A DNA stretch of 64,000 nucleotides, from assembly GCA_038093515.1 (NCBI GenBank), contig JBBPSI010000006.1, forward strand, positions 124,001 through 188,000, written 5' to 3'. Source of the DNA: Butyriboletus loyo. Lineage: Eukaryota > Basidiomycota > Agaricomycetes > Boletales > Boletaceae. Position 1 is the stretch's first letter; each line of letters opens with the position of its first letter. The translations under genes were made by a program, and so were the position numbers. Below are positions 36,813 to 52,800 of the stretch, piece after piece. The notes under the pieces were generated by a model. That model was not told the origin of the DNA. It made no database searches and was given only the letters and a program-made list of their open reading frames with translations.

Positions 36813-39800
36813 ATGTCTCACTCCGTCCTTGACCACGGGGACCTTCGTACACTGGAATATATCGTCACGCACGTTTTTTTTCCCATCAAGCTTCCCGATG
36901 AGGACGACCACAGCATCCACAATAGTCTTTCTCTAGCTGGAGCAGTCGCCTCTGTTGCGCGAATGTATTGTAACCACGTCGACAACGCAAACCTGCCTCA
37001 GTGGCATTGCATCTCAGGAATGTTGGACAATCTACAAGCCGCTGTTCAGTATAGAAGTTTGGATCGGCTCCGGACTATTTCCCAGCTTAGCAGCATGAGC
37101 GTAGGAGGTAAGCTTTCGAGCCTCCACTATGTCCTCGGAACTCACAATCTGCAGATACTCGCGCATTTCTTATCCGAGCGCAAAACGCGGCGGTCGTTTT
37201 TAGAAAGCAGAAAGATGTCACTATCTTCGAATCCTTCGAGGTATCCCCAAAAGCTGAGGATGTGATGGCTACGCGGGGAAAGCTCATCTGCTCTTATCCT
37301 GGACCGGCCATCAATGTCCCTAATGTCATGTTTGAAGACGAGAGCTTTCTTTCCGAGCTAGTGAATTTCCTCGTTCACATGAACGACGATGTCCTTGATG
37401 CGGCTCCACCAAGTCTAGAACCACAGTCCACTGTTGGCCAAGCCCGAGACACCACCCACCCGCGTTATATCACCGAGTTGCTTACTGGCATCTTGAGAGG
37501 TGTCGGTCGCCCTGCCGACATCGTTCGCATCAGTAAACGTGTGGGGGATGATGTTATCGGCAACGGCTCGAAGTTGCCGTGGCGACGCTCGTCACTCTGG
37601 CTGGTTATCAAGGTTGCCCTTCAGACATCACTGCATCGGTCCTCTCTCGGGCATCATACCTACAAGGAATTCATGCTATTCTTCATGTGTCGCCTTGCAC
37701 AGGACGAGATCTGTGCGGACCTCCCCAATAATGTACTCCAATGCATGTCAGCCAAAATCAGCCGACGCCTGCGGAAGCTTGGTTCTTTCGCACCAGACTG
37801 GCTCTCCCGCATTGCGTTGGAGATCTGCAATTCCCTCCGATCGGCTCTTGAGAAGAGGTGGGCACAGGTACATGCTGCTCAGCGTGTATCCCCAGTGTGG
37901 GATCCCTCTCAGCTTGATCTTACCCGAGACATTCAGCTGTCACTCTTGGGGAGTCGCGACTACCTTCGCAACGCTCTCGCGGATGGCATCATAAATACTC
38001 CCCGCGCTTCTTTTAACCCCGAACATCATCCCCGAGGTACCCTTGATGATTTTCTGTCTTCTGACGGGGTCTTTTTCGAGAAGGCATATCGTACTGAGCC
38101 ACATGTTGCCCTCTACGACGTCGAGCGGGCGGTTGAGCAGAGTATTGACGCCTGGGTTGGTCGGGTTGGAAACAACGACGAAGCTTGCATGAAACTGGAG
38201 GTCTTGGCAAATAGATACTCCTCGAGTGCGCTGAAAACGTACGCGAACAATCCGGAACTTCTGTCAGTCATGCTGTTGACCGCGATCGAGCTTTGGGTTG
38301 CGCTGGACAAAATAGCTGTCAAGGAGATTCCGATGCTCGCAGACTACTCTCCGGAGGTCCCCACAAGGATTTTGGAGGATCTGTTAGTTTGCAAGACTGG
38401 GAGTCTCTGTCGTCTTCGCCACGCGCACCAATACCTCTCTGATCGCCACTCCCGGTCACGACGTCGAGAGTCTGTTTTTTCTCCGCCAATCACTGCAAAC
38501 AATTTTGCCGTCCGTTTCTACAGAAGCTCATCGCATCTTCAGCGCCTCAAGACTCGGGTCGAGGAAGTAGCGCAGCGCGAAGTTCGTGAAAAAGTTGCTG
38601 AACTCGAGAGAGAGAACGCTCGTCATGCAACTCTGCAACGACAAGCTGCTATGCTTGATCACGAGTACGCCATTGATCGGGATGGCTTCGGATGCCATGC
38701 CAACCACTGCAGCAAATGCAACCTTGAAACAAAGTATGGGAACATGGAGATATCGGTTCATGAATGGCCATTGCCAGCCGAACAGCTCCGCGCTGAGGCT
38801 GTCGTGTTTGAATTAGATTGTCCAATCTCTTTCAACATGTGGCGCACTGCTACACTGCATCTCTTGGTCGATATTTGCTCCCCATCCATTGGGCGAAAAC
38901 GTCCCTGTATCAAACTCAGTGGATATGCCGCATTACAGCCTTACCTTGTTCAGTATCCGAGATCGCGGGTCACCCTCGCTTCTGACACGGGGCCCAGGCA
39001 TTCTAGTACAACGTCCATTCCCACCACGCAGGGACGGGTCTGCGTTAACGATGGGTTGACATTCTATGGTTTTGATAGCCGTGCTTGTATTCCTATCTCG
39101 GATGCATTGGGTCGTGTCGACATCAGCAGGCATTGCACGTACAAGCTTCAAAGTGAATCATACCAGAATTTGCAGCAATTTGTTGTTGCCACCTCCCACA
39201 CGTCGAACGATGTCGTAGCAAACCAAGCTGACTGCCATCAAGACCTTTCCATCCATGAATTTATGGCGTTCGGACACCTGCGCAGTGGCGAGTTACTTCA
39301 ATGGCTCAACATCTTGCGAGAGCTTCGGGGTCGATCGCTGAGTTTCCATCGTCACGAAGTCCATCTGCTGTTGGCTCAGGCAGCTTCTCAAGTTGGACCG
39401 CTTGCAAATTCGGGGTGGACGTGGCATCAGGAGACCCAGGAGACGTCCTTTTGCTATGCGCTTCTAGGAGAGTTGGAGGACCTCCTTCGGGATGTCGAAG
39501 CAAATTGGCTGGAAACAGTGACAATGAATACCATTTCCTTCTTGGTCCGTCGTCTACTGGCGTCCAGCCCTGATGAAGCTGTCGCCCAGAAAGCGCTTGG
39601 ACTTCTTCGTACTGTATGTGGCAAAGTATTCTCTTGGGTACGGGAGTTATCGGCTAAGCTCGCGAAAACCCCGGGAGATGAAGAGTTGCGTGTGTTTTTG
39701 CGGGACGCCGCCGCCGTTTGTCGAAGCACGTTCGACATTGACCCAGCTGTGGCCCGAAAGCTCCTTCGCTCAGCAGAAGACATCGAAGTTCTGCTTTCTT

Positions 39801-42800
39801 CCGCTGTATTAATCCACAAACACGCACCCAGCAGCACCTCTTCCCTCCCCGCATATTCACAACTTATCCTTGACCGAGACCGCCGCACATCTCTGACTCT
39901 TGAGAGTGTCGTGAACGGCGTCCTTCAGGCCGACTCCAGCGATCAAGGCATCAACCTTGCGGTTGGCAGGGTTTGGCCATACTACCGCCCAGGTTCGAAG
40001 TGGACGCCATTGAGGAATCCGAATTCACGCTGGTTCTCATGCACGACCGCACGAACAGGTAATCAGTGTTCGCAAGTGGTGCACTTCAATTTACTCGATG
40101 GGTCACTTTTGGTCAACGGAAAACCACTTCGGGGATTACCAAACGAAATTCTGCGGCATCCACAATACAACCTGATATTTGGTGAGGTACGTTGCGCCAT
40201 CCCCAGTGTAACGCAGGTTGCTGACCACTTGTGCAGCAAGTGCTGGAGGTTGTACCAAGTGATCTTCCAGGGATGGATTACTCGACACGGAGCATGATCT
40301 GCGGTCACCAGGTGAGCCCACTTTCGGAGGTGAATGGTATAACCTTGAGAACTCAGGTGGCACGCCCAGGTGTACTTTTCTCTGAGAAACAACTCTGATC
40401 TCGTGATACGAGCTTTTTCTAATTCGGGAATTACCGAGTTCATCCCTCAAGAAAAGCTGGAGGGTGACTTTCCGGATGTATTGATTGATGGACACGCTCA
40501 CTGGTTAAACCTTTCTACATCCATTTTGGAGATTCGCCCTCTCGATACTCTTTGGGAGGGTTCGTCGGAGAACTGGAAGGTGGATTGTATCCCTGGGCAA
40601 TACCGTATGCGCAGAGGCCGTGAGTTCCTCATAGACATCCGAAGCCAATCTTGGGCCATGGTATCAAGTCTCTTCAAGCCACTCGATACCCCACAGAACC
40701 TTCTTATCACCGTGTCCCCGATCAACTCCGACCAGCTTTCGCCATCATGGCAACTGTCTGGCACTCTACCCCGCTATCGCCTATCCTTTTACGTCGATGA
40801 GGATGGGGATCTACAGTCTCGTAACATCAGGGGTATGGTTTATGACGAGAATCAATTCATTGGGACTCTGTTTGGTTTGGTCAATCGGCTTGTGCTTCGG
40901 CCAAAGCTCAGAGGACATGTCAACGCCGTCGAACTTGTCCCACGGTGTGTCCTGATCCCGGAGGGCGCAGTTTCATTTCAGACGGATGGTCATCACGTTC
41001 GCGTCGAAATCATTACCCGGGATTCTGTCTGTCAGCGGGTCACGTACCAGACCTATGGAATTGATACCGACCTGGGCTGCTTGACAGGAAATGTCAGTTT
41101 GACGAACAAGCTGTACTGTGCTTACCTGCATGCTCTGACTAGCGGGTGTAGCACCGATCCGCTGACAGGCAGGTCTGGTACGGAGGAAGCGCTGTCTCTA
41201 CTGCAGTCAGCTAGCTGCTGGTCGGCCATGAGGTTCGGCTCTCGCGATGCGGAGCTCCTGAGGTTGATCGCATCTATATATCCCCCACGCACGTGGTACC
41301 CCATCCATTTCAAGTGTATGCAGGTGGAGTGGGCCAATCTTCCGGTCAATTCTCAGCATCACGACTTGTACCTCGTTTCCAAAGCAATCAAGAAACACTA
41401 CGAGAGGGTGCAGTTGTTCCGCGAGAGCCAGTCTCGCACTTTACTTCGGGAATTTCCATCACATAACGATCACCTGCTAGACCGCAGTGCGCGACGAGTT
41501 GTGTATCTATTCCCATCTGAATTTTCTGCACGGTCTTCTAAGGAAGACTTCAATGTTCAGTACCCTGCCAGAGACCGACTGCAGGTTCGCTCGGGGGAGC
41601 ATCGCGCTTATACCGCGGCAATTTTCGTTCACCGTCGGACTCCCAATTTGGTGACTCCGAAGGATGTACTGGGCATGGTGCAGTCATGGAGCGGAATTGT
41701 GGCCAAGGATGCTACTTGGTCTCTCCAATATGACAGATCGTGGCTGGCTCCAGATCTTCCATCGATTTGGTTAAAGGCATACAATCTCTTGCGAGGAAGC
41801 GATGAAAGAAAATGGGTTCAGTTGCTTTTCTCACTGCCCGCGATGGCGTATGCCTCGTCGAATCTCACCGACTTGGTCCCCATGTTCATAGCCTTTGCGG
41901 TGAATCCGCGGTTTCGTCTGGAGGATCCAGCACACTATGATTCTTACACACCTTCAAAAGGATACAGTCCCTCTCCGACCACTCTGAGCACTTATGTTTC
42001 TCGCTGTGCACACTCCTTTGAGCGTAGCCCTGAAAGCACACATCCTGCAAAAACTGGCGAGAGTCTCGAGAATTTACGAAAACGTCGGCTCGAAATGTAT
42101 AACAAGAGACGAAGCTCGGACTCTGATGCAACAGTCCAATGGTTGTTGAACGCTTGGCCATGCGAGACTCCCCCACGGTGCTTGCTCAACCCCGATTTAT
42201 ATGATTTGGCAGATTTGGAGTTCAATGTTCAGAGCCATTTCTCCAACTGTTATCACAATCTCAAGCTCAGAGAGCACCTCGCTCGTGTTCAGAAGATTTT
42301 GGACAGCGTACACCGCCAGGTCTTCCGAATCCCATCCCCCACTTACTCATTTCGTCCCTCGAAAAGCATCCCATCTTGCACCACGTGGCCATTCACAGTA
42401 AACCAGCTATTCGCCAGACGTGCACCATCATTAGAAGCACGGGATAGATTGCCTCGACAGACTGCCGACGTTGAGAATACGCCACTCTCTGGTCCCAGCA
42501 TGTTACATCAACTAATTGCGAAAGCTGATACAAACGCAGTCAATCAATTCCAGCGACGATACATCTCGGCCCTTCGCGCTAGTGCAGATTGCTTTGCAAG
42601 TGAGATGTGCCTTGCAGCTCACGGAGCGACGAAGGTACCTACTGTCGAGACACTCCTGGCACACTATCATCGGTGCAGAGCCAGTTACATGGAAGCACTT
42701 CACCGGCTCAAGCAGCATCTGGGCCCGAGAAGCCAGAATGAACAAGCTCTCGAGCAGTCCGGCCAATGGCCACGCGTCACCCCACATGCACTTTTTCGGT

Positions 42801-45800
42801 CCCTCGCGTCTAATTCACCAATTGTACTCTCTGACGAGTGGAAGAGATGTCTCGTAGGGTTAACGCTACACGCGCTCGAGCTACAGCGTACTCGAAGATT
42901 GCTTCGACTACACATCGACAGCCTTCATGAAGAACTCCGCAGGGAACTGCAGAATGAAGGATGTGATGGTTGGAACGCCGAGTCGAACCCAGACTGGCTG
43001 CTAATCCAGGTGTGTTTCCCATGTCATGGATGTATATACTAGCTGACGCCACGTCCTTCCCGTACTTCAGCTGCAAGCCAACTTTTTGGTTCGTCGCGTT
43101 CAAGTTGATGTCGCCCAGGAAATGATAACACCACGCTCCGGTAACAATACGGCCATGCAACTCAATATGGGCGAGGGGAAGTCATCCGTGATCGTCCCTA
43201 TCGTTGTTGTTGTGCTTGCCAATGGTGATCAACTCGTCCGCGTCATTGTCCCGAGGGCATTAACGGCGCAGATGTTCTACCTTCTTGCGGATCGCCTCGG
43301 CGGACTCGTCAATAGACGAATATACTTCATCCCATTCTCCCGTTCCCTCGAAGTTAGTCGTGACGAAGTGGTTGCCCTCCGTGACCTTATGACGGAATGC
43401 ATGAAGGAGCGTGGAATTCTGGTCGTCCAGCCGGAGCACGTTTTGTCGCTCAGGCTGGTGACCGTGGAGAAGCAACTGCCTCAGGCAGAAGACCATCAAC
43501 TGGCAAACCTGTTACTGAAGCTTCAGAGGTGGCTTCGTTCTAATTCACGAGATATTCTGGACGAGAGCGACGAAATTCTTCACGTTCGGAACCAGTTGGT
43601 ATACACCATCGGCCATCAGCAGCATATGGAAGGCTTCCCTGATCGATGGACCACCACGCAACAAGTTCTCGGCCTCGTGAGCAAACATGCGTCTTCCCTT
43701 AGAGACCGTTTCCCGCTTGGAGTAGAGTACGAGCACGGTCCGTCCGGATCTTTCCCCTACCTTCGTATCCTGCAAGCAGACGCTGGACAAGAGTTAATTT
43801 CGTGGATAGTGCAAGACGTTATGGATGACCTGCTTCCAAACTTCAGCCTCGGACAGCTCCGTTCGGACCTTGGGGAGGCGATTCGAAGCTTCATATCGCG
43901 CGCGGATGTCCCTCCCGAGAATGTCCAGTTGGTAAAGGAGTACTCTCAGCAAACTCCTCTGTGGGGTGGTCTGCTCCTGCTGCGCGGCTTCTTGGCCACC
44001 GGCATTCTTCTGTTTGCTTTCAGAGATCGACGGTGGCGGGTAGACTACGGCCTTGCCCTAACGCGTACCATGTTTGCAGTCCCGTATAGAGCAAAAGACA
44101 TCCCAGCACAAAGGGCCGAGTTTGGACATCCAGACGTTGCCATCGTCCTCACTTGCCTATCTTACTATTATAGTGGCCTCAGCGATGAACAGCTGAGGGT
44201 TTCTTTTGAAATTTTGCTCAAACAAGATGACCCATCCTTGGATTATGGTCTCTGGGTTCGAGATTGCCCTGCTGTGCCAGAAAATCTACGGGCAGTAAGC
44301 GCTCTCAACGTCAAGTCATCCGAACAATGGAAGGAGTTCCTAGTTCCTCTGTTCTCGCGGGGTCGGGCAACAGTCAATTTCTACCTTTCGAGTGTCGTGT
44401 TCCCGAGACAAGCCAAAGAGTTTCCTTCAAAGCTGTCATGTTCAGGTTGGGATTTGGCAGAGAAGAAAAAATGTATAGTGACCGGTAAGTCGAGGATGAC
44501 TTTACTCGATTGCCGAGCTCGCTGGCTCAACCATGCATTAGGATTTTCGGGAACGAATGACGGTCAATATCTACTACCCCTGCACATCACTCAACGCGAC
44601 CCCAACCATCAGCGAGGGGCCAATGCGAAGGTTTTATCATATCTTCTACAGTCAGAGAACAAGCACTATATGCGCATGACCAAAGAGAACGGCGAGCGGC
44701 GAACCGCACGCGAGTTCCTCAAGATCCTGGTTGCTCAGGAGCCCGAGATCCGAGTCCTATTGGATGTCGGTGCTCAAATGCTCGATCTTCAAAACTATGA
44801 ACTGGCCGAAGCATGGCTAAACATCAAGAAAGATGCATCTGCCGCCATTTATTTCAATGAAGACGACGAGTTGACAGTGCGCACAAGAGACGGAGGTTCA
44901 CAACTTCTGATATCATCACCATTCGCGCAGCAGTTAGACCAATGCATCGTATACCTTGATGATGCTCATACACGTGGTACCGACATCAAGTTTCCAAGCG
45001 GATTCCACGCTGCGGTCACACTGGGTCCAAAAGTCACCAAGGATCGTTTGGCGCAAGGTATCCACAGCTTGCATCAGTTCATTCCACTAGTAATCTCACT
45101 GTTTTTTGCTCGTAGGTTGTATGCGGATGCGGAAGCTCGGCCAAGGGCATTCCATCATGTTTTTCGCACCTCTCGAAGTTGATCGGCGTATCCGTTCCGT
45201 GGCTGGAAAAGGGCCTTTGGACATCATCAACACTATGGATATTCTACACTGGGCTATGCTTGAAACGTGTGACGATATTCAGCGGTGGGCATCTCATTGG
45301 GCACATCAAGGGATGGATCATACATCCCGACATGCTGCTTGGACCAGCTTCTCCCGATATGCTACTTGGACCAGTTTCTGCAGAAACCAGCTATTCTCGA
45401 GAGCGCTTTCGAAAAAGTGGCTCCAGCCGGAAGCCAAGAGGTTGGAAGATCTCTATTTGCGTCACAACACTCCACAATTTGTCTCGTCGGCCAGTCGGAA
45501 TGTTCGCCAACGTTGCATTGAGCTCGGGGTTTTGTCGCTCCACGACGTGAGCATGGATGAAGAACAAGAGCAAGAGGTCATTCATGAAGTCGAACGTGAA
45601 CGACAAGTAGAACGGCCACCGAGAGTTCTCCCAGAGAGCCACTCGGTCCATCAAGATGTCGTTACCTTTGTAATGACAGGTGTCGTTCCTACAAATACCA
45701 ACGCTTTCCGTCCAGCTTTCGAGACACTAGATGCAACTTCCGCGGCCACCAACCAGGCGCACGTTTGGAGTCCATTTGTGTTGGCAACGACGGACTTCCA

Positions 45801-46473
45801 GAAAACCGTCCGCTCGTCAGGAAAGTTAGACGAATACTTGCGCCCTGTCCAGTGGATTGTTTCCGGGAAAAGGGATGGAAACGACGTGCTCGTTATTTTG
45901 AGCCCTTACGAAGTCAACCACTTGATACCGGATATCAGGTCGAGCGACAAAGTTCAATTCCATGTGTACACACCTCGCGTCACCAAGTCCATGAAACCAT
46001 GCGACGACCTTGCGTTGTACAGCACGCCCGCTGTCCCCACCGGGTTGACTCCCCCTCGGCCTCTTATGGATCAGTTGAACGTGTTTGCTGGGCAGCTATA
46101 CCTGAAAGACTACGAGACGTACATCCGATTGTGTCGTTTCCTTTGCGTGTTTGCAAGGGACTTGGAAGGCGAGGATGGCATTGAGGTTGGGGCCGACGGG
46201 TTCATCTCGCCAAAGGATCGGCCAATGCATCTGCAGACCACACACACATTCCAACGTTCGCCCATTGCTTCGATGAGGACATTGATAGGCCTTCGCAGGA
46301 AAGGGATGTGCTTTGCACCGACGCACATGGGGAAACTTCTCGATGGACGGCCACTTTCTGAAGATGATTTCTATGCCAGTTGTGATGAGGTGTGTTTCAT
46401 CTTGCTGCTTGTAACGGTTGGGTAATTGACGATTCGGAATACTACTATTGTCCAGAATGTCAAAGGCCACTAG
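36813..46473 (+). CDS. DUF6606/DUF3638/DUF3645 giant protein (copy 2, complete)
   Basis: Complete 3106-residue member of a fungal family with unknown cellular role, often auto-annotated as ubiquitinyl hydrolase. Exons: 36813-37107, 37155-40186, 40237-40311, 40370-43009, 43071-45057, 45116-46389 and 46456-46473; all junctions keep frame and the total divides by three. The N-terminal region (LEYIVTHVFFPIKLPDEDDH) fits the DUF6606 part. A P-loop-like MQLNMGEGKSSVIVPI lies near 43155-43202 and a DESDE acidic box near 43558-43572, both in the DUF3638 part, which resembles a nucleotide-binding/helicase-like core. DUF3645 and the C-terminal part follow. Start ATG 36813 (MSHSVLDHGDLRTLEYIV) is the first ATG leading into the conserved N-terminus. 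Its last ~560 codons are nearly identical to copy 1 at the window start. Confidence 0.9.
45328..45381 (+). repeat. 27-bp in-frame tandem duplication inside copy 2
   Basis: Two 27-bp units (45328-45354, 45355-45381) encode RHAAWTSFS and RYATWTSFC. Copy 1 has a single unit at the matching place (652-678, RYAAWTSFC). The units already differ at several bases. Confidence 0.85.
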
Positions 46474-46824: not shown

Positions 46825-49800
46825 ATGAAGCCCTTCAACAAGAAACAAATGGGCACCGCCAGTAAAGTCTCCAGTGACTCCCCAACCCTCAGATGCCCAT
46901 ACCCAACATATGACCCAGTGCAGTTTCCAGCGACTGGGAGATTCTCCTAACTCAAGCCGGTGCTCTCGCTCCCGATACACAGCCTGTGGATTCAGGCACA
47001 CCCGAGGGACAAGCGTCAGCCTATCTTGTGACTCTTCCGCACTGCGAAGTGAATGGTGAGTGACGCTTTCGGGGTAAAAGGGGCCATCTCTGCCCAATTA
47101 GGTGATGCGCGGCACTCGCCGAAGTGGCGCGGCGATCTTCCGTCGCTCAATGTTGCCAGTGGAACCCTGCCAGTAAGTCATCCATCGCTGTTCGGGTCCA
47201 CTACCAATCAGTCGTCTTCCACTCATCTTTCAGCTTTCCACTCCCGCAATGAGGGCCGCCATTGAGCGGTTTGGACGTCTCCGATCTCTCACCCACAGCA
47301 GAGACTCGTCTTCGGCACCTGCCCTGCGTTCCCACGTATCCAACATGCGACCCCCCAGCGAGTCGAAATTTATCCCGACTCAAACCAATGACACCGATGC
47401 TCCCGCTTTCGAGTCACAGCACATAGATATGAATTCGGTCACAGACAGACACTCTCTTGAGCCACACTCCGACAACTCGAGTGCCACCAGCGTGCAGACG
47501 AAAGCTTCGGATGTTGCCGACTTCATGCAGGACATTGACCCGGATCTCATGGAGAAATTTGGGCGATTTAGAATTCTCATCATCGGCAGGGCAAACGCCG
47601 GCAAGACGACCATCCTTCATAGAATCTGCAATTCGACGGAAGGTCCGGAGATCTACGACAGTCAAGGGGAAAAGGTACGGTTGATCAGGCTAAGATATGC
47701 TGGATGCTAATGTTGTATCGTGCGATCAGGTTGATTTTATGATCGAGGGGTCCAGAGAGGTAGGTATCATGGCTATCACGAATGCCGTCGTGTCATCTTA
47801 CTCTTCGCAGCGTGGACTCCATGATATCGATTGTGAGATGGTCTTCAAAAGCAACCCGAAACTTATTTTCCATGACTCTCCTGGTTTCGAGGCTGGTCGT
47901 GAGGATGAGTTTGAGAAGATGAAGAACTTCATCACAGAGCGTGCAAATACGAATTTCCTCGGGAAGCAGATCCATGCAATATGGTGAGTGGGTATAATAT
48001 TGTGTTGGATTCTGACAACTACTTTAACATGAGCAGGTACTGCATCCCAATGGATCAGTTTGATCGTGCTGTCGTTGTTGCAGAGGAAAAATTCTTTGGC
48101 GAATGTGACACTAATAATGGTAATGAATTCTTCTTAATGATGCTTTCCAAGCTCATTGGTTTGGGTACCAGTGCCAGTTGTGGTATTGTTCACTAAATGT
48201 GATGCCCTCATGATACAGGCATTCCAGCCACAAGACCTACTACTGCCTCCAGAACTTGTAATGCAGAGGGCTCAAGAGAATTTTGACAAGAGAAATATAA
48301 GGGGGAAATTGTGTGAGATGACATTTCCTCCAAAGGCATTTGTGCAACTGCAAAGTTTGTATACATATGCCCTCCTTTTTATTCTATTCTATTCTATTGA
48401 TTATATTTCAAGACATGGATACATCTGCCAAAGGGTGTAACACATTGCTGGCACAGACTGCAGCTGCACTCAATGATGAAGCATTGCAGAGGTTGTTGAT
48501 TGCAGCACAGGAAAAAAATATCCTGCTATGCATTGAGTATGCAGTCAGATGGTAAGTGAAGCAATTTTTGAATGTAGAGGATACATGTATTGATGCTACA
48601 AAGTGCCTTGGTGCCTTATGTTGAGTTCAAGATCACTCAAAAGCAGGACCTTGATCTAGTTGGGGCAGTGGCAAGCTGGTTTCCACACACACAGGTAAGA
48701 ATTTATTGGAATATGGAATGGTTCTATGCTTGAATGAAATTGGTGGATTGTTAGGTAATTAGCATGACATTAAATCTACAAAGAGGTCACTGATTGGTGT
48801 TTTTATTCTTTTCGTACAGAAAGTATGTGAAATATTATGCATTGGAAGAATGACAAACTCATATGGTTTATTATATTAATAGCATGTAAGTGATACATAA
48901 AACCAAACACTGTTATTACATTCATCTTACTGCCCTTATATTGATAGCAAGTGAGTAATTGGTTGGATAAATGAATAACAATGTTACTAATGAATTATTG
49001 TTTGATTCTAAAGGGAGTAAGTCATGCATATGAATATATGAAAATCAGCATGTTAGTAATGGATGCATTGCATGTCTACTGCTACCCTGTTATCATCAGG
49101 CAGTAAGTTATGTGATATGTATTAAGATGGAGTGTGGCTGATATATTGATATTTGTTTTTATAGGGGGTAAGCAGTTTAATACATGTTGCAAAGACAAAA
49201 CTGAGGGTTACATATGACATTGTTGAATGTAAAGGTGGTAAGTGGGATGTGAATAAAAGTCAAAATTCTATTGACAAACTTTTATTCATCTCTATAACTG
49301 CTATTCCAATGTAGCTTGTAGGTGACCAAGTGTGCATATTGAGACAGGACATTAATCATAGGCCTATGATCTATGCTTTCTGATTATAGTTTGTAAGTAG
49401 TTCAATGTCAATATGAAATCAGAATGCTGTTAATGAACCTCTGTCCTGCTGCACTCTGATTGATAGATTGTAAGTGGTTTGGTATGGCATTGGAATGAGA
49501 ATGCTGCTGATCAATATGCCTCCTGCTGCTCTTTTGTTGATAGAGAGTAAGTGGTCTGATATAACTTTGAACAAAGAATGCTGCTGATCAGCATGCTTCC
49601 TGATTGATAGGAAGTAAGTGGTTTAATGTGCATTTAAAATGAAAATGCTGCTGATCAGGATGCCTCCTGCTATTTCTCCATTAATAGCTTGTAAGTGGTC
49701 TATTGTAGGTATGACATGAGAGTTGTACTGACCAGAATGCCTCCTGCTGCTCTCTCACCAATAGCAAGTAAGTGGTCTGATATGGGTTTAGTATGAGGAT

Positions 49801-52800
49801 GTTGCTGATCAACATGTCTCTTCCTGTTATTTTGTTGATACTAGGGAGTAAGTGATCTGATGTGGATTTGAAATGGGAATGCTACTGATTAGCATGCTTC
49901 CTGCTGCCCTCCTATTGATAGTTTGTAAGTGGTCTGATATAGATTTAAAATGAGAATGCTGCTGATTAACATGTTCTCTACTGCTTTCCCATTGATAGTT
50001 TGTAGGTGGTCTGATGTGGATTTGAAATGAGAATGCTGCTGATCAGCATGCCTCCTGCTACTTTCCCATTGATAGGAAGTAAGTGGTCCATTGTGGATTC
50101 CATCTGAAAATGCTATTAATCAGTATACCTTCTACTGTTTCCTTACTTGTAGTGTGTAAGTGGTTTGAAATGGGTTTGAAATGGGAATGCTGCTGATCAG
50201 CATGCTTCCTCTCCCATTGATAGATTGTAAGTGGCCTAATGTGTATTTAAGATAATGATGCTGCTGATCAGCATCCCCTGCTACTCTCCCATTGATAGCA
50301 AGTAAGCAGTCTAATATGGATAGTGGATACTGCTGATTAACATGTCTTTTTCTACTCTTCCATTGATAGCAAGTAAGTGATCTGATGTGAATTTGAAATG
50401 AGAATACTGCTAATCAGCATGCCTTGTGTTGCTTCTCCATTGATAGCTTGTAAGTGGTCTGTTATGGATGTGAAATAAAAATGTTGCTCATCAGAATGCC
50501 TCCTGCCACTCTTCCATTAATAGGAAGTATGTAGTTGGATTTGAATTTGGAATGAGAATGCTGCTAATTAGCATGCCTTCTGTTGTTTTTAGGGGGTAAG
50601 TAGTCTGGTGGGAATTTGAAGTAAAAATGCTGCTAATCAGTATGCATCATACTGCTCTTCCATAGGGAGTAAGTGATCTAACATGGATTTGAAAATCAAA
50701 GTGCTAATTGGCATTCCTTCTGCTGCTCTCCTATTGATAGGAAGTAAGTGGTTTGATGCAAATTTGAAATAAGAATGCTGCTGATCAGCATTTCTCTTGT
50801 TACTCATCCATTGATAGAGAGTAAGTGGTCTGATGTGGATTTGAAACCAGAATGCTGCTGATCAACATGTCTCCTGCTACTCCCTCATTAATAGCATGTA
50901 AGTGGCTTGATGTGAATATGAAATAAGAATGCTGTTGATTGGCTTGCCTTCTATCATTTCCCCACTGATAGCTTGTAAGTGATCTGATATGGATTCAAAA
51001 TGAAAATGCTGCTGATCAGCATGCCTCCTGCTACTCTTTTCTTAATAGTATGTAAGTGGTCTGATGTAGATTTGAAATGAGAATGCTGCTGATCAATGCC
51101 TTTGTTGCTCTTCCATCAATAGTTTGTAAGTGGTTTGATATGGATTTGAAGTTGAAATGCTACTGATTAGCTTGCCTCCTGCTATCTCCCTATTAATAGC
51201 AAGTAAGTGATCCAATGTGGATTTGGAATGACAATACTGCTGATTTAGTGCCTCTTGTTGCTTTCCAATTGATAGCAAGTAAGTGGTCTTATGTGAATTT
51301 GAAATGAGCATCATTGGTGCTGATTAGTGTGCCTCCTGCTATTCATAGAGAGTGAGTGGTCTGATGTGGATTTGAAATGAAAAGGCTGCTGATTAGTATA
51401 TCTTTTGTTGGTCTTCCATTGATAGAAAGTAAGTGATCTAATATGAATTGAAAATGAGAATGCCATTGATTCCATTCTATCATTCCTATCTCAACTCATA
51501 GTTTGTAAGTTTTTTTTGTGTGCATAACAAAGTGCAGGATCAATTGATCTTCATTTCTTTTACCACTTTTCTATCAATAAGGAGGTAAGTAATTTCATTT
51601 GAAAATGTTATTTTGATTAACATTACTTTTATTTCACTTTCCTTGTCACAGAAGGTGATTAATATCATAATATTTGCATCACTAGTAAACACATCCCTAT
51701 TTCTAATACTTTCTTCAAAACAGAATGTAAGTAATCTGATGTAGCTTGCAAGTCTACATTCTGCTCATTATACCTTTTATTCCATTGTCTCAATCTGGAA
51801 TAATTCTATCATTCCTTAATCTCTGATATACATAGTTGGTATGTGCTATTTTATCATTTAAGCATTGCACAATTATAAGCTTATATTTATATAGGATGTA
51901 AGTCTAGTCTGTCATATAATGTATTATTCACATTTTTCCTTTGTTGAAATTTAGATGGTAAGAAATTTATGCTATAATTTAATATTCTTATTCAGAATTT
52001 CAATAGCATGTCAGTTTTCATTTTCAAGGTCCCTATGTTATAACTAATGTTATTCAGATTGTCATCCATACTCAGTCTCAGTCTCAGTCTCAGTCCAGCC
52101 CTGTAATATTTTGTAATCTGATTATCATTTGTACTTGCTAAAATGATTTCATGCCTTTCAGATCTCTCTTGAAACAACAAAGGGAATGCTCATGGCATGT
52201 ATATTCATGGACATATCTATATTATACCAATGTTCTATATGTTTCAGGCTAAGAAGACAGCCAACACATGGAAAAGAGTCCTTCAAGATGGCATTGGTAA
52301 GCTGATCAATCTCAAGTTTTAATAACTATGACATCTTTTTCAACAGACCTTATACTGCTTCTTCAATATTCCTTCACTCTTGTCCAAAATAATTCTGAAG
52401 ATCCCATTTCCCTGGCAGTACAAAGGTATAATGAGTCTGGAATCTCTGCTCAGGTGTCCAGAAAACTTGATCAGCTCTATGTCAAATATTCTGCTGTCAA
52501 TGGCATAGAGGAAAAAGTGAATATTGTCATGGATGTGATCTTGCATAACCCTTTGTGTAAGTAGCCAAGTGACATAGCTTTTATATGCTAATCTGACTTC
52601 ATGGAGTATAGGCTAAATGTCATGGCTTGTAGAACTTAGATAGATGATGATGATTTACAGACCAGAAATGTGTAAATCAATATCAAGAGCATTGTCAACA
52701 ACACTTGAAGGACACACTTGTACACATCATGGCCACAATCCTTTTCAAGTGTAATATATATATATTGTAAACAACCATGAGCTTTTGTCACTTGCATAAC

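Follow-up and report, generated by a model that had tools for sequence, protein, structure and literature searches.

A GTPase gene on the forward strand of a 64,000-nucleotide stretch of the Butyriboletus loyo genome (assembly GCA_038093515.1, contig JBBPSI010000006.1, positions 124,001 to 188,000; hereafter, the window) contains a long run of short intron-like units spaced exactly three nucleotides apart. We consider it probable that this run is an array of single-codon exons that is spliced into a variable segment of the encoded protein. The repeating unit of such an array, about 75 bp long, would comprise one codon and one short GT-AG intron. To judge from the sequence, the spliceosome of the source fungus would remove these introns singly, by intron definition, and join the triplets. 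The product would be a variable segment (44 residues in the window gene) located between a conserved block ending in ...WFPH and a conserved C-terminal block of the protein. Because nearly all units have 3 nt and lie in phase 0, the gain, loss, or skipping of a unit should be neutral to the reading frame, and the near-identical introns could promote unequal exchange and the duplication of blocks, with the result that array length would change fast. The codon bases are far more diverse than the introns, which would provide each gene copy with its own segment. Diversification would proceed either by targeted change of the bases that follow each AG or by strong diversifying selection with exchange confined to the introns. 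That the segment has a role in recognition is a guess made by analogy with fungal NOD-like receptor genes.

The context AG-NNN-GT surrounds all 43 triplets of the region 48695–51957, the first at 48820–48822 and the last at 51955–51957, bearing out the claim of the first-pass annotation that 43 units occur with exactly 3 nt between each AG and the next GT. A donor of the form GT[AG]NG follows 42 of the 43; the exception is triplet 39 (AAG, 51652–51654), whose donor reads GTGATT. The array comprises the following features:

48820..51957, plus strand: 43 single-codon exons and 42 introns (56–109 nt); the triplets read KHQGAGVLFIRELQGFFECIQQLEGGERHLYFQQRKFEKNLDM
52007..52009, plus strand: a 44th single-codon exon, CAT, followed by the donor GTCAGT and assigned by homology with paralogue L016

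The last of these replaces a 14-nt exon (51996–52009) proposed at first pass: the CAT occupies the position of the AGT that closes the chains of paralogous loci L014, L015, L016, and L018. The introns between the triplets are 74 nt long in 16 of 42 cases, and the tandem repeat has a period of 77. The array introns are of normal fungal size and have mostly GTAAGT-type donors; the motif CTRAY is found in 31 of 43, and in 14 of those it lies 37 nt upstream of the intron's end. As had been noted, the triplets include 20 different codons and no stop. In the window and the 10 first loci taken together, strict chains with exons of length 3 reached 38 units in the window and, at the other loci, as many as 48; at all other exon lengths from 0 to 12, the longest had only 4. 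The AG-NNN-GT chain is far beyond chance.

The whole genome (30.3 Mb; the window lies on contig C6) holds a family of such arrays. A search for consensus-like introns yielded, among the best candidates scored, 54 matches on 10 contigs, including C6. Genome-wide, the linked two-unit pattern TAG-NNN-GTAAG..50–80..AG-NNN-GTAAG was matched 259 times (87, 125, and 47 by first codon base), vs. four times for the reversed pattern. With 4-nt exons, the same pattern was matched 0 times (control, 2) and with 6-nt exons twice (control, 3); this lack of linked 4- and 6-nt units follows from the common descent of the units. We decoded 18 chains with 501 triplets in total. Of these, 491 remain when the L011 fragment (6 units, the last being TGA) and four doubtful units (two at the start of L027 and two at that of L041) are left out, and none of the 491 is a stop. 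L009 was omitted as a duplicate of L010 (contigs C395 and C75 share 1454 identical bases).

GTPase-family exons precede or follow 17 of the 18 chains, L011 being the exception, and the C-terminal block adjoins 10 of them, with several others cut by contig or stretch ends. The start of the array is present in 12 chains, all at the same gene site; therefore, 12 gene copies carry the array, some of which could be alleles of one another. The arrays begin and end alike between paralogues (RGLGREKFLIQDDF...AQEDFARNLD; KHQGAG.LF... in the window and L010), and their middles differ in both sequence and length, the longest chain reaching up to 58 units. The window array represents an older, more diverged subfamily than the core arrays. 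In L041 and, more weakly, in L012, blocks of several units recur, from which it follows that arrays also grow by blocks; repeated codon strings are weak overall (18 at k = 3 vs. 9.7 in shuffles, with 2.9% of shuffles as high).

Individual loci had peculiarities of their own. In L038 (C158:32–1629), the first nine codons are all GCT (poly-alanine) and the introns form a distinct subtype; this is possibly a recent single-unit expansion that precedes diversification. L017 and L032 (C8:63.6–65.4k and 73.4–75k, minus strand) appear to be the two parts of one array, about 8 kb from each other: GTPase exons accompany the 5' half at 73–77k, and the C-terminal exon accompanies the 3' half at 63–65k. 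An insertion within that array is likely. L011:4700–6300 and the start of the L041 array adjoin the same sequence resembling a long terminal repeat (shared 23-mer), and L011 has a reading frame, retroelement-like by eye, ahead of its six units; retroelements seem to land in, or to carry, pieces of arrays. L039 (C254), which has units of 4 and 5 nt, may be decaying.

The codons vary far more than the introns that part them. This comparison used 55 core units that had passed a length filter and that lie between two 72-nt introns; the units come from 8 arrays and form 245 pairs within arrays. A second set of 121 codons, from 8 arrays with core introns, was compiled without L038–L041. Over the 245 pairs, diversity was 0.588, 0.673, and 0.000 at codon bases 1, 2, and 3, and the 72 intron columns averaged 0.0325, peaking at 0.31. 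In the 36 pairs that have 36 identical nt on both sides, base 1 differs in 22, base 2 in 22, and base 3 in none. Likewise, all arrays together provide 111 within-array pairs whose downstream introns are identical; 64 of these pairs are mismatched at base 1 and 70 at base 2, with none at base 3. When L038 is left out, bases 1 and 2 differ in 53 and 64 of 90 such pairs. Random draws from the observed core codons give diversities of 0.632 (base 1) and 0.715 (base 2), and the observed values are close enough to these that both bases are near saturation. The statement at first pass that the triplets differ while the introns are alike was right, and it applies with much greater force to the paralogues. 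Neutral parts of a tandem repeat can be rejected as an account of the core arrays: the codons differ between identical introns.

Codon bases are unlinked to the introns beside them. Among T-ending core units, 110 pairs have identical downstream introns, and 26 of them have the same codon dinucleotide (26.7 in shuffles); of the 110 pairs whose upstream introns are identical, 23 do (22.9 in shuffles). Within the core subfamily, codon mismatch declines mildly from about 0.73 at 70–75% intron identity to 0.52 and 0.62 (bases 1 and 2) at zero intron difference, a trend that may be due in part to the GCT-rich L038 and to the dearth of A at base 1. Core introns enclose 121 triplets, of which 119 have T as their last base and three have A as their first. 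In the window subfamily (n = 44), the third base varies (A 19, T 18, G 7, C 0) and all three codon bases approach random-draw diversity; a rule of “two bases only” for every array is thus wrong. Units of 1 nt (TAG-T-GTAAG) in L012 and L014 look like units from which precisely the two variable bases have been lost. We have not found a two-base hypervariable peak of this kind described in the literature.

Proteins of relatives show a segment at the same place. A WFPH-type block is present in most of the relatives aligned, and in P0003, P0004, P0005, P0051, P0121, P0129, P0130, P0132, and P0134 (contigs of 1.1–2.3 kb), it is followed by a variable segment and then by the C-terminal block; P0135 was kept off this list because it ends without that block. 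The five contigs of P0003, P0004, P0005, P0051, and P0130, in which the sequence is unbroken from P-loop to C-terminal block, were taken for complementary DNA (cDNA) since they are also unbroken across the sites of six further introns of the window gene. Segments read, for example, RYYYDDVRDLDVLDLLRDLDVLLLL in P0051 and DGFRRDDLRFVSSIRFLSDDRFSLSRDLRFDF in P0121. Codons ending in T would lead one to expect a depletion of E, K, Q, M, and W, and the segment cores contain these residues at 0 of 25 positions in P0051, 0 of 32 in P0121, and 1 of 33 in P0132, fewer than in every window of equal size elsewhere in each protein. P0131 equals P0130 plus 17 residues (ASRLIPHYLCLLIIIYQ) inserted at a codon boundary, and this addition is probably a retained 51-nt intron (GCAAGT...CAG). 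A Suillus model, P0133, contains a 22-residue block (VSVSI...SQ) three times over, with a single Y in one gap and EE in the other; this arrangement would fit read-through of 66-nt introns. In P0134, the segment (SSSWWSWEWWWDLDMEL) abounds in W, S, E, L, and M, as codons ending in G would give, and the fixed third base may differ between arrays. With the paralogue arrays and the segment in relatives' proteins at the same place, the earlier proposal that the triplets are in-frame spliced exons becomes probable, and the triplets would probably be spliced into messenger RNA (mRNA).

Several observations weigh against this conclusion, and we gather them here. The contigs of the relatives are known from their proteins alone, and their status as cDNA is a deduction. 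The depletion of E, K, Q, M, and W is lacking in P0129, P0130, and P0135, such that three of six segments are clear, with limits that were set by eye. Seven proteins from short contigs (P0009, P0010, P0011, P0023, P0046, P0074, and P0136) end soon after WFPH, and the segment is nearly lacking from the Suillus models P0054, P0124, and P0126, as would result from gene callers that pass over microexons or from real skipping. The freedom of the window triplets from stops is weak evidence (P = 0.051 given their own base composition). The array of L038 is mostly GCT. Taking 40–60 adjacent introns out of each transcript would be demanding.

The remaining points of this kind concern frame and coding constraint. 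In the 18 chains, the pattern [CT]AG-k-GTAAG occurs 349 times with k = 3, twice each with k = 1 and k = 2, once each with k = 4, 5, and 7, and never with any other k up to 12. The rates of insertion and deletion (indels) in the introns predict about as few size changes: 2.7 for the window with L010, 2.4 for the core arrays, and 0.8 and 0.4 for the two array ends. The numbers observed were 0, 4, and, at the ends, 0. Triplet length is thus no steadier than intron indel rates predict, and we dropped the idea that the reading frame holds it. Units that would shift the frame (1, 2, 4, or 5 nt) are found in five of 18 chains, namely, L012, L014, L016, L032, and L039. At the array ends, 75 codon columns need a minimum of 18 changes vs. 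about 14 expected from the introns, distributed over bases 1, 2, and 3 as 5, 4, and 0 at one end and 4, 4, and 1 at the other (expected per base, 2.3 and 2.5). By this minimum-change count, the end codons are no better conserved than introns. A pairwise tally of 0 third-base differences in 394 comparisons at the ends was discarded because shared ancestry enters it many times over; the minimum-change figures are 0 vs. 2.3 expected and 1 vs. 2.5 expected. Slots 7–14 at the array start are invariant in the 6–9 copies compared. The first-pass annotation's claim that the triplets are under coding constraint was therefore not supported: end codons change about as frequently as introns do, triplet length is no steadier than the intron indels lead one to expect, and the middle is hypervariable.

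Inverted repeats were also seen in some introns. The best stem, GAATGGT...ACCATTC or close to it, occurs in 22 of 46 introns of L012, 17 of 46 of L014, and 21 of 51 of L016; in these three loci, the stems are perfect inverted repeats of 6–9 bp with a branch-point-like CTGAT in the loop. An ATGCTG-CTGAT-CAGCAT inverted repeat is present in 4 of 41 window introns. A conserved hairpin was rejected as a general intron feature, as L010 and L038 resemble shuffles and few window introns have one. Such repeats may aid splicing or recombination.

What makes the codons so variable? One answer, to which we give somewhat less than an even chance, is diversifying selection acting together with gene conversion and no special mutational process. 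It is compatible with single-codon exons, for it addresses only why the codons vary. For the WD, ANK, and TPR repeats of fungal NOD-like receptors (NLRs), the passages available describe concerted evolution together with positive selection (PMC4986451). The repeated multi-unit blocks of L041 and, weakly, L012 accord with such a process, as do the near-random diversity of the window subfamily at all three codon bases and the mild fall in core codon mismatch as intron identity rises. However, linkage equilibrium prevails even between identical introns, and exchange tracts would consequently need to spare the codons. Furthermore, base 3 of the core is invariant (0 of 245 pairs) even though a change at this base would affect the amino acid in codons for His, Asp, Tyr, Phe, and Cys; the window array, moreover, does have A and G at base 3.

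The other answer, which we hold tentatively, is a dedicated process that mutates only the bases just 3' of each AG, such that a young array would be a degenerate library read out by splicing. If so, young arrays would be mostly [CGT]-N-T, incapable of forming stops, and length (through exchange in introns) would vary separately from content (through local mutation). Targeted change accounts for the two-base peak, the near-saturation, the fixed third base of the core, and the absent linkage. We place the two answers about level, leaning slightly toward selection with exchange because no targeting machinery turned up, although none was sought.

Other explanations were weighed as well. The best of them, which we nonetheless consider unlikely, holds that the region is one large minisatellite intron in which the AG-NNN-GT sites are recursive-splice (ratchet) points or their relics, and that the triplets never enter mRNA. 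The tandem period of 77 suits this explanation, and the flanking exons are in frame with or without the triplets; likewise, triplet size changes at about the rate expected from intron indels, and the ends are not specially conserved. Yet the transcript-like contigs of relatives hold a segment at the matching place with a partly matching residue alphabet, and the difference between P0131 and P0130 resembles one retained intron inside that segment. Nor does a large intron offer a reason for hypervariability at exactly those bases.

Insertion of an introner-like mobile intron, copied between the codons of an older continuous exon, we regard as very improbable. It would be in keeping with near-identical introns that part unrelated codons and with the lack of linkage between codon and intron. 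This explanation, and with it the first-pass suggestion that an intron body spread between neighboring codons, leaves unexplained the exact 3-nt spacing repeated dozens of times and the 119 of 121 endings in T. In addition, unlike with introners, the contigs hit by the 134 of the 259 two-unit matches that were listed in full are those of the GTPase family and the L011 fragment. Finally, an assembly artefact in the form of a collapsed or scrambled repeat is scarcely credible: several contigs do start or stop in or near arrays, and C395 and C75 share their long identical tract, but the codon strings are ordered and specific to each paralogue, the ends are common, the introns are positionally homologous, and the window array is internal to its contig with well-diverged units.

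The preferred reading, an array of single-codon exons in a GTPase gene, is anchored in a homology-guided gene model for which paralogue L016 was used only for its positions and array. The 59-exon, 637-residue model of the first pass was not reproduced; the new model is open over 55 exons and 533 residues, from the ATG at 47249 to the TAG at 52562–52564, with seven exons before the array and four after it:

47249..47674, plus strand: exon 1, with start ATG 47249 (matched in paralogue L016) and P-loop GRANAGKT
47730..47759, plus strand: exon 2, GT-AG, open frame
47811..47983, plus strand: exon 3 of the gene model
48037..48119, plus strand: exon 4 of the gene model
48172..48354, plus strand: exon 5 of the gene model
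48413..48551, plus strand: exon 6 of the gene model
48604..48694, plus strand: exon 7, phase 0, ending ...ASWFPHTQ directly before the array
52058..52102, plus strand: post-array exon IVIHTQSQSQSQSSP, with the counterpart IVTNPQSSL in L016
52162..52194, plus strand: exon ISLETTKGMLM, followed by a GC-AG intron (52195–52247) whose donor, GCATGT, is also found in L016
52248..52296, plus strand: exon AKKTANTWKRVLQDGI of the gene model, C-terminal block
52347..52564, plus strand: last exon, with stop TAG 52562–52564

The predicted protein matches Pfam MMR_HSR1 (PF01926) over residues 108–194, weakly but above threshold (E = 6.6e-5; 23.4 bits, cut-off 21.9); NB-ARC scores 18.7 bits, below its cut-off of 23.5. 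Neither NACHT nor ANK is among the eight Pfam families listed for the protein, and the host gene is not a NACHT-ANK NLR. No solved structure was similar by sequence at E values up to 0.01. Among the best 120 of 437 hits, the named proteins nearest to it come from Boletales (Butyriboletus, Imleria, Boletus, Chiua, Suillus, Pisolithus, and Rhizopogon), and PF01926 is precomputed for many of these relatives. Just upstream of the GTPase gene, the window has frames with DUF6606, DUF3638, and DUF3645 (37262–46425). A frame at the window's left end (445–1716) resembles the one at 45106–46425 and has no Pfam match.

If the preferred reading is true, a segment of up to about 58 residues is built codon by codon by the spliceosome, at the limit of what splicing is believed capable of, and the family would offer a natural system for learning how 3-nt exons are recognized. 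The layout may let the fungus vary a stretch of protein quickly. Two near-saturated bases within a near-invariant 75-bp repeat make targeted DNA change vs. selection alone directly testable. Several models that stop at WFPH or read into introns suggest that gene callers tend to truncate or garble such families, and similar systems may thus have been missed elsewhere. A second phylum and a second NTPase family, beside the NLR of truffles, suggest that codon-sized exon arrays may recur where variable, possibly recognition, surfaces are needed.

How do these arrays compare with known systems? Aphid bicycle genes contain microexons and resemble the present family, as far as the available passages go, in their fast-evolving products; we know of no single-codon tandem arrays in them. 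Schistosome micro-exon genes have exons of 3–81 bp and introns of up to 5 kbp in the passages seen of one source (PMC10526429). There, too, runs of very short exons give rise to variable proteins. These genes are not known to form uniform arrays of codon-sized exons parted by short introns that are nearly identical.

Introner-like elements share with the core arrays the property of near-identical spliceosomal introns in many copies. In fungi, however, they are reported, in the portion available, to sit in unrelated genes (PMC4457414), whereas the introns studied here lie in tandem within one family (17 of 18 chains). The WD, TPR, and ANK repeats of fungal NLRs are described in the available passages as highly alike with few hypervariable positions, as changing in copy number, and as suspected of non-self recognition (PMC4986451). 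The high repeat identity and the few hypervariable positions are found in the 55 core units too, and the arrays share the change in copy number and the organization into paralogue families. The repeat codes for a structural motif in the NLRs; here, by contrast, it is an intron, and each unit adds one residue.

The closest counterpart is in Tuber melanosporum, whose NACHT-ANK (nank) genes have “tens” or “dozens” of 3-bp mini-exons that are alternatively spliced (Iotti et al. 2012, in the passages of PMC3689799, PMC4986451, PMC9815663, and PMC10197012 that cite it). The first-pass annotation knew of no run of this sort; the truffle genes, as those passages describe them, are a precedent. In both systems, a fungal family of P-loop NTPase genes contains 3-bp exons that number in the tens and affect the C-terminal region. 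Consecutive 3-bp units whose splice sites are usable by sequence number 43 (44 with the final CAT) in the window gene, and a paralogue chain has as many as 58. They differ, according to the same passages, in that the truffle genes are NACHT-ANK NLRs, whereas the present ones form a GTPase family in a basidiomycete of the Boletales. Alternative splicing is reported for the former, whereas the window units are known from sequence alone, and the two-base hypervariable peak of the present core arrays is absent from the passages on nank genes. We recognized no publication on the Boletales array family by title or the start of its abstract in a search that left most subscription journals outside. 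Codon-sized exon arrays were thus already known; to these, the present work adds another phylum and another gene family, together with a census and an analysis column by column.

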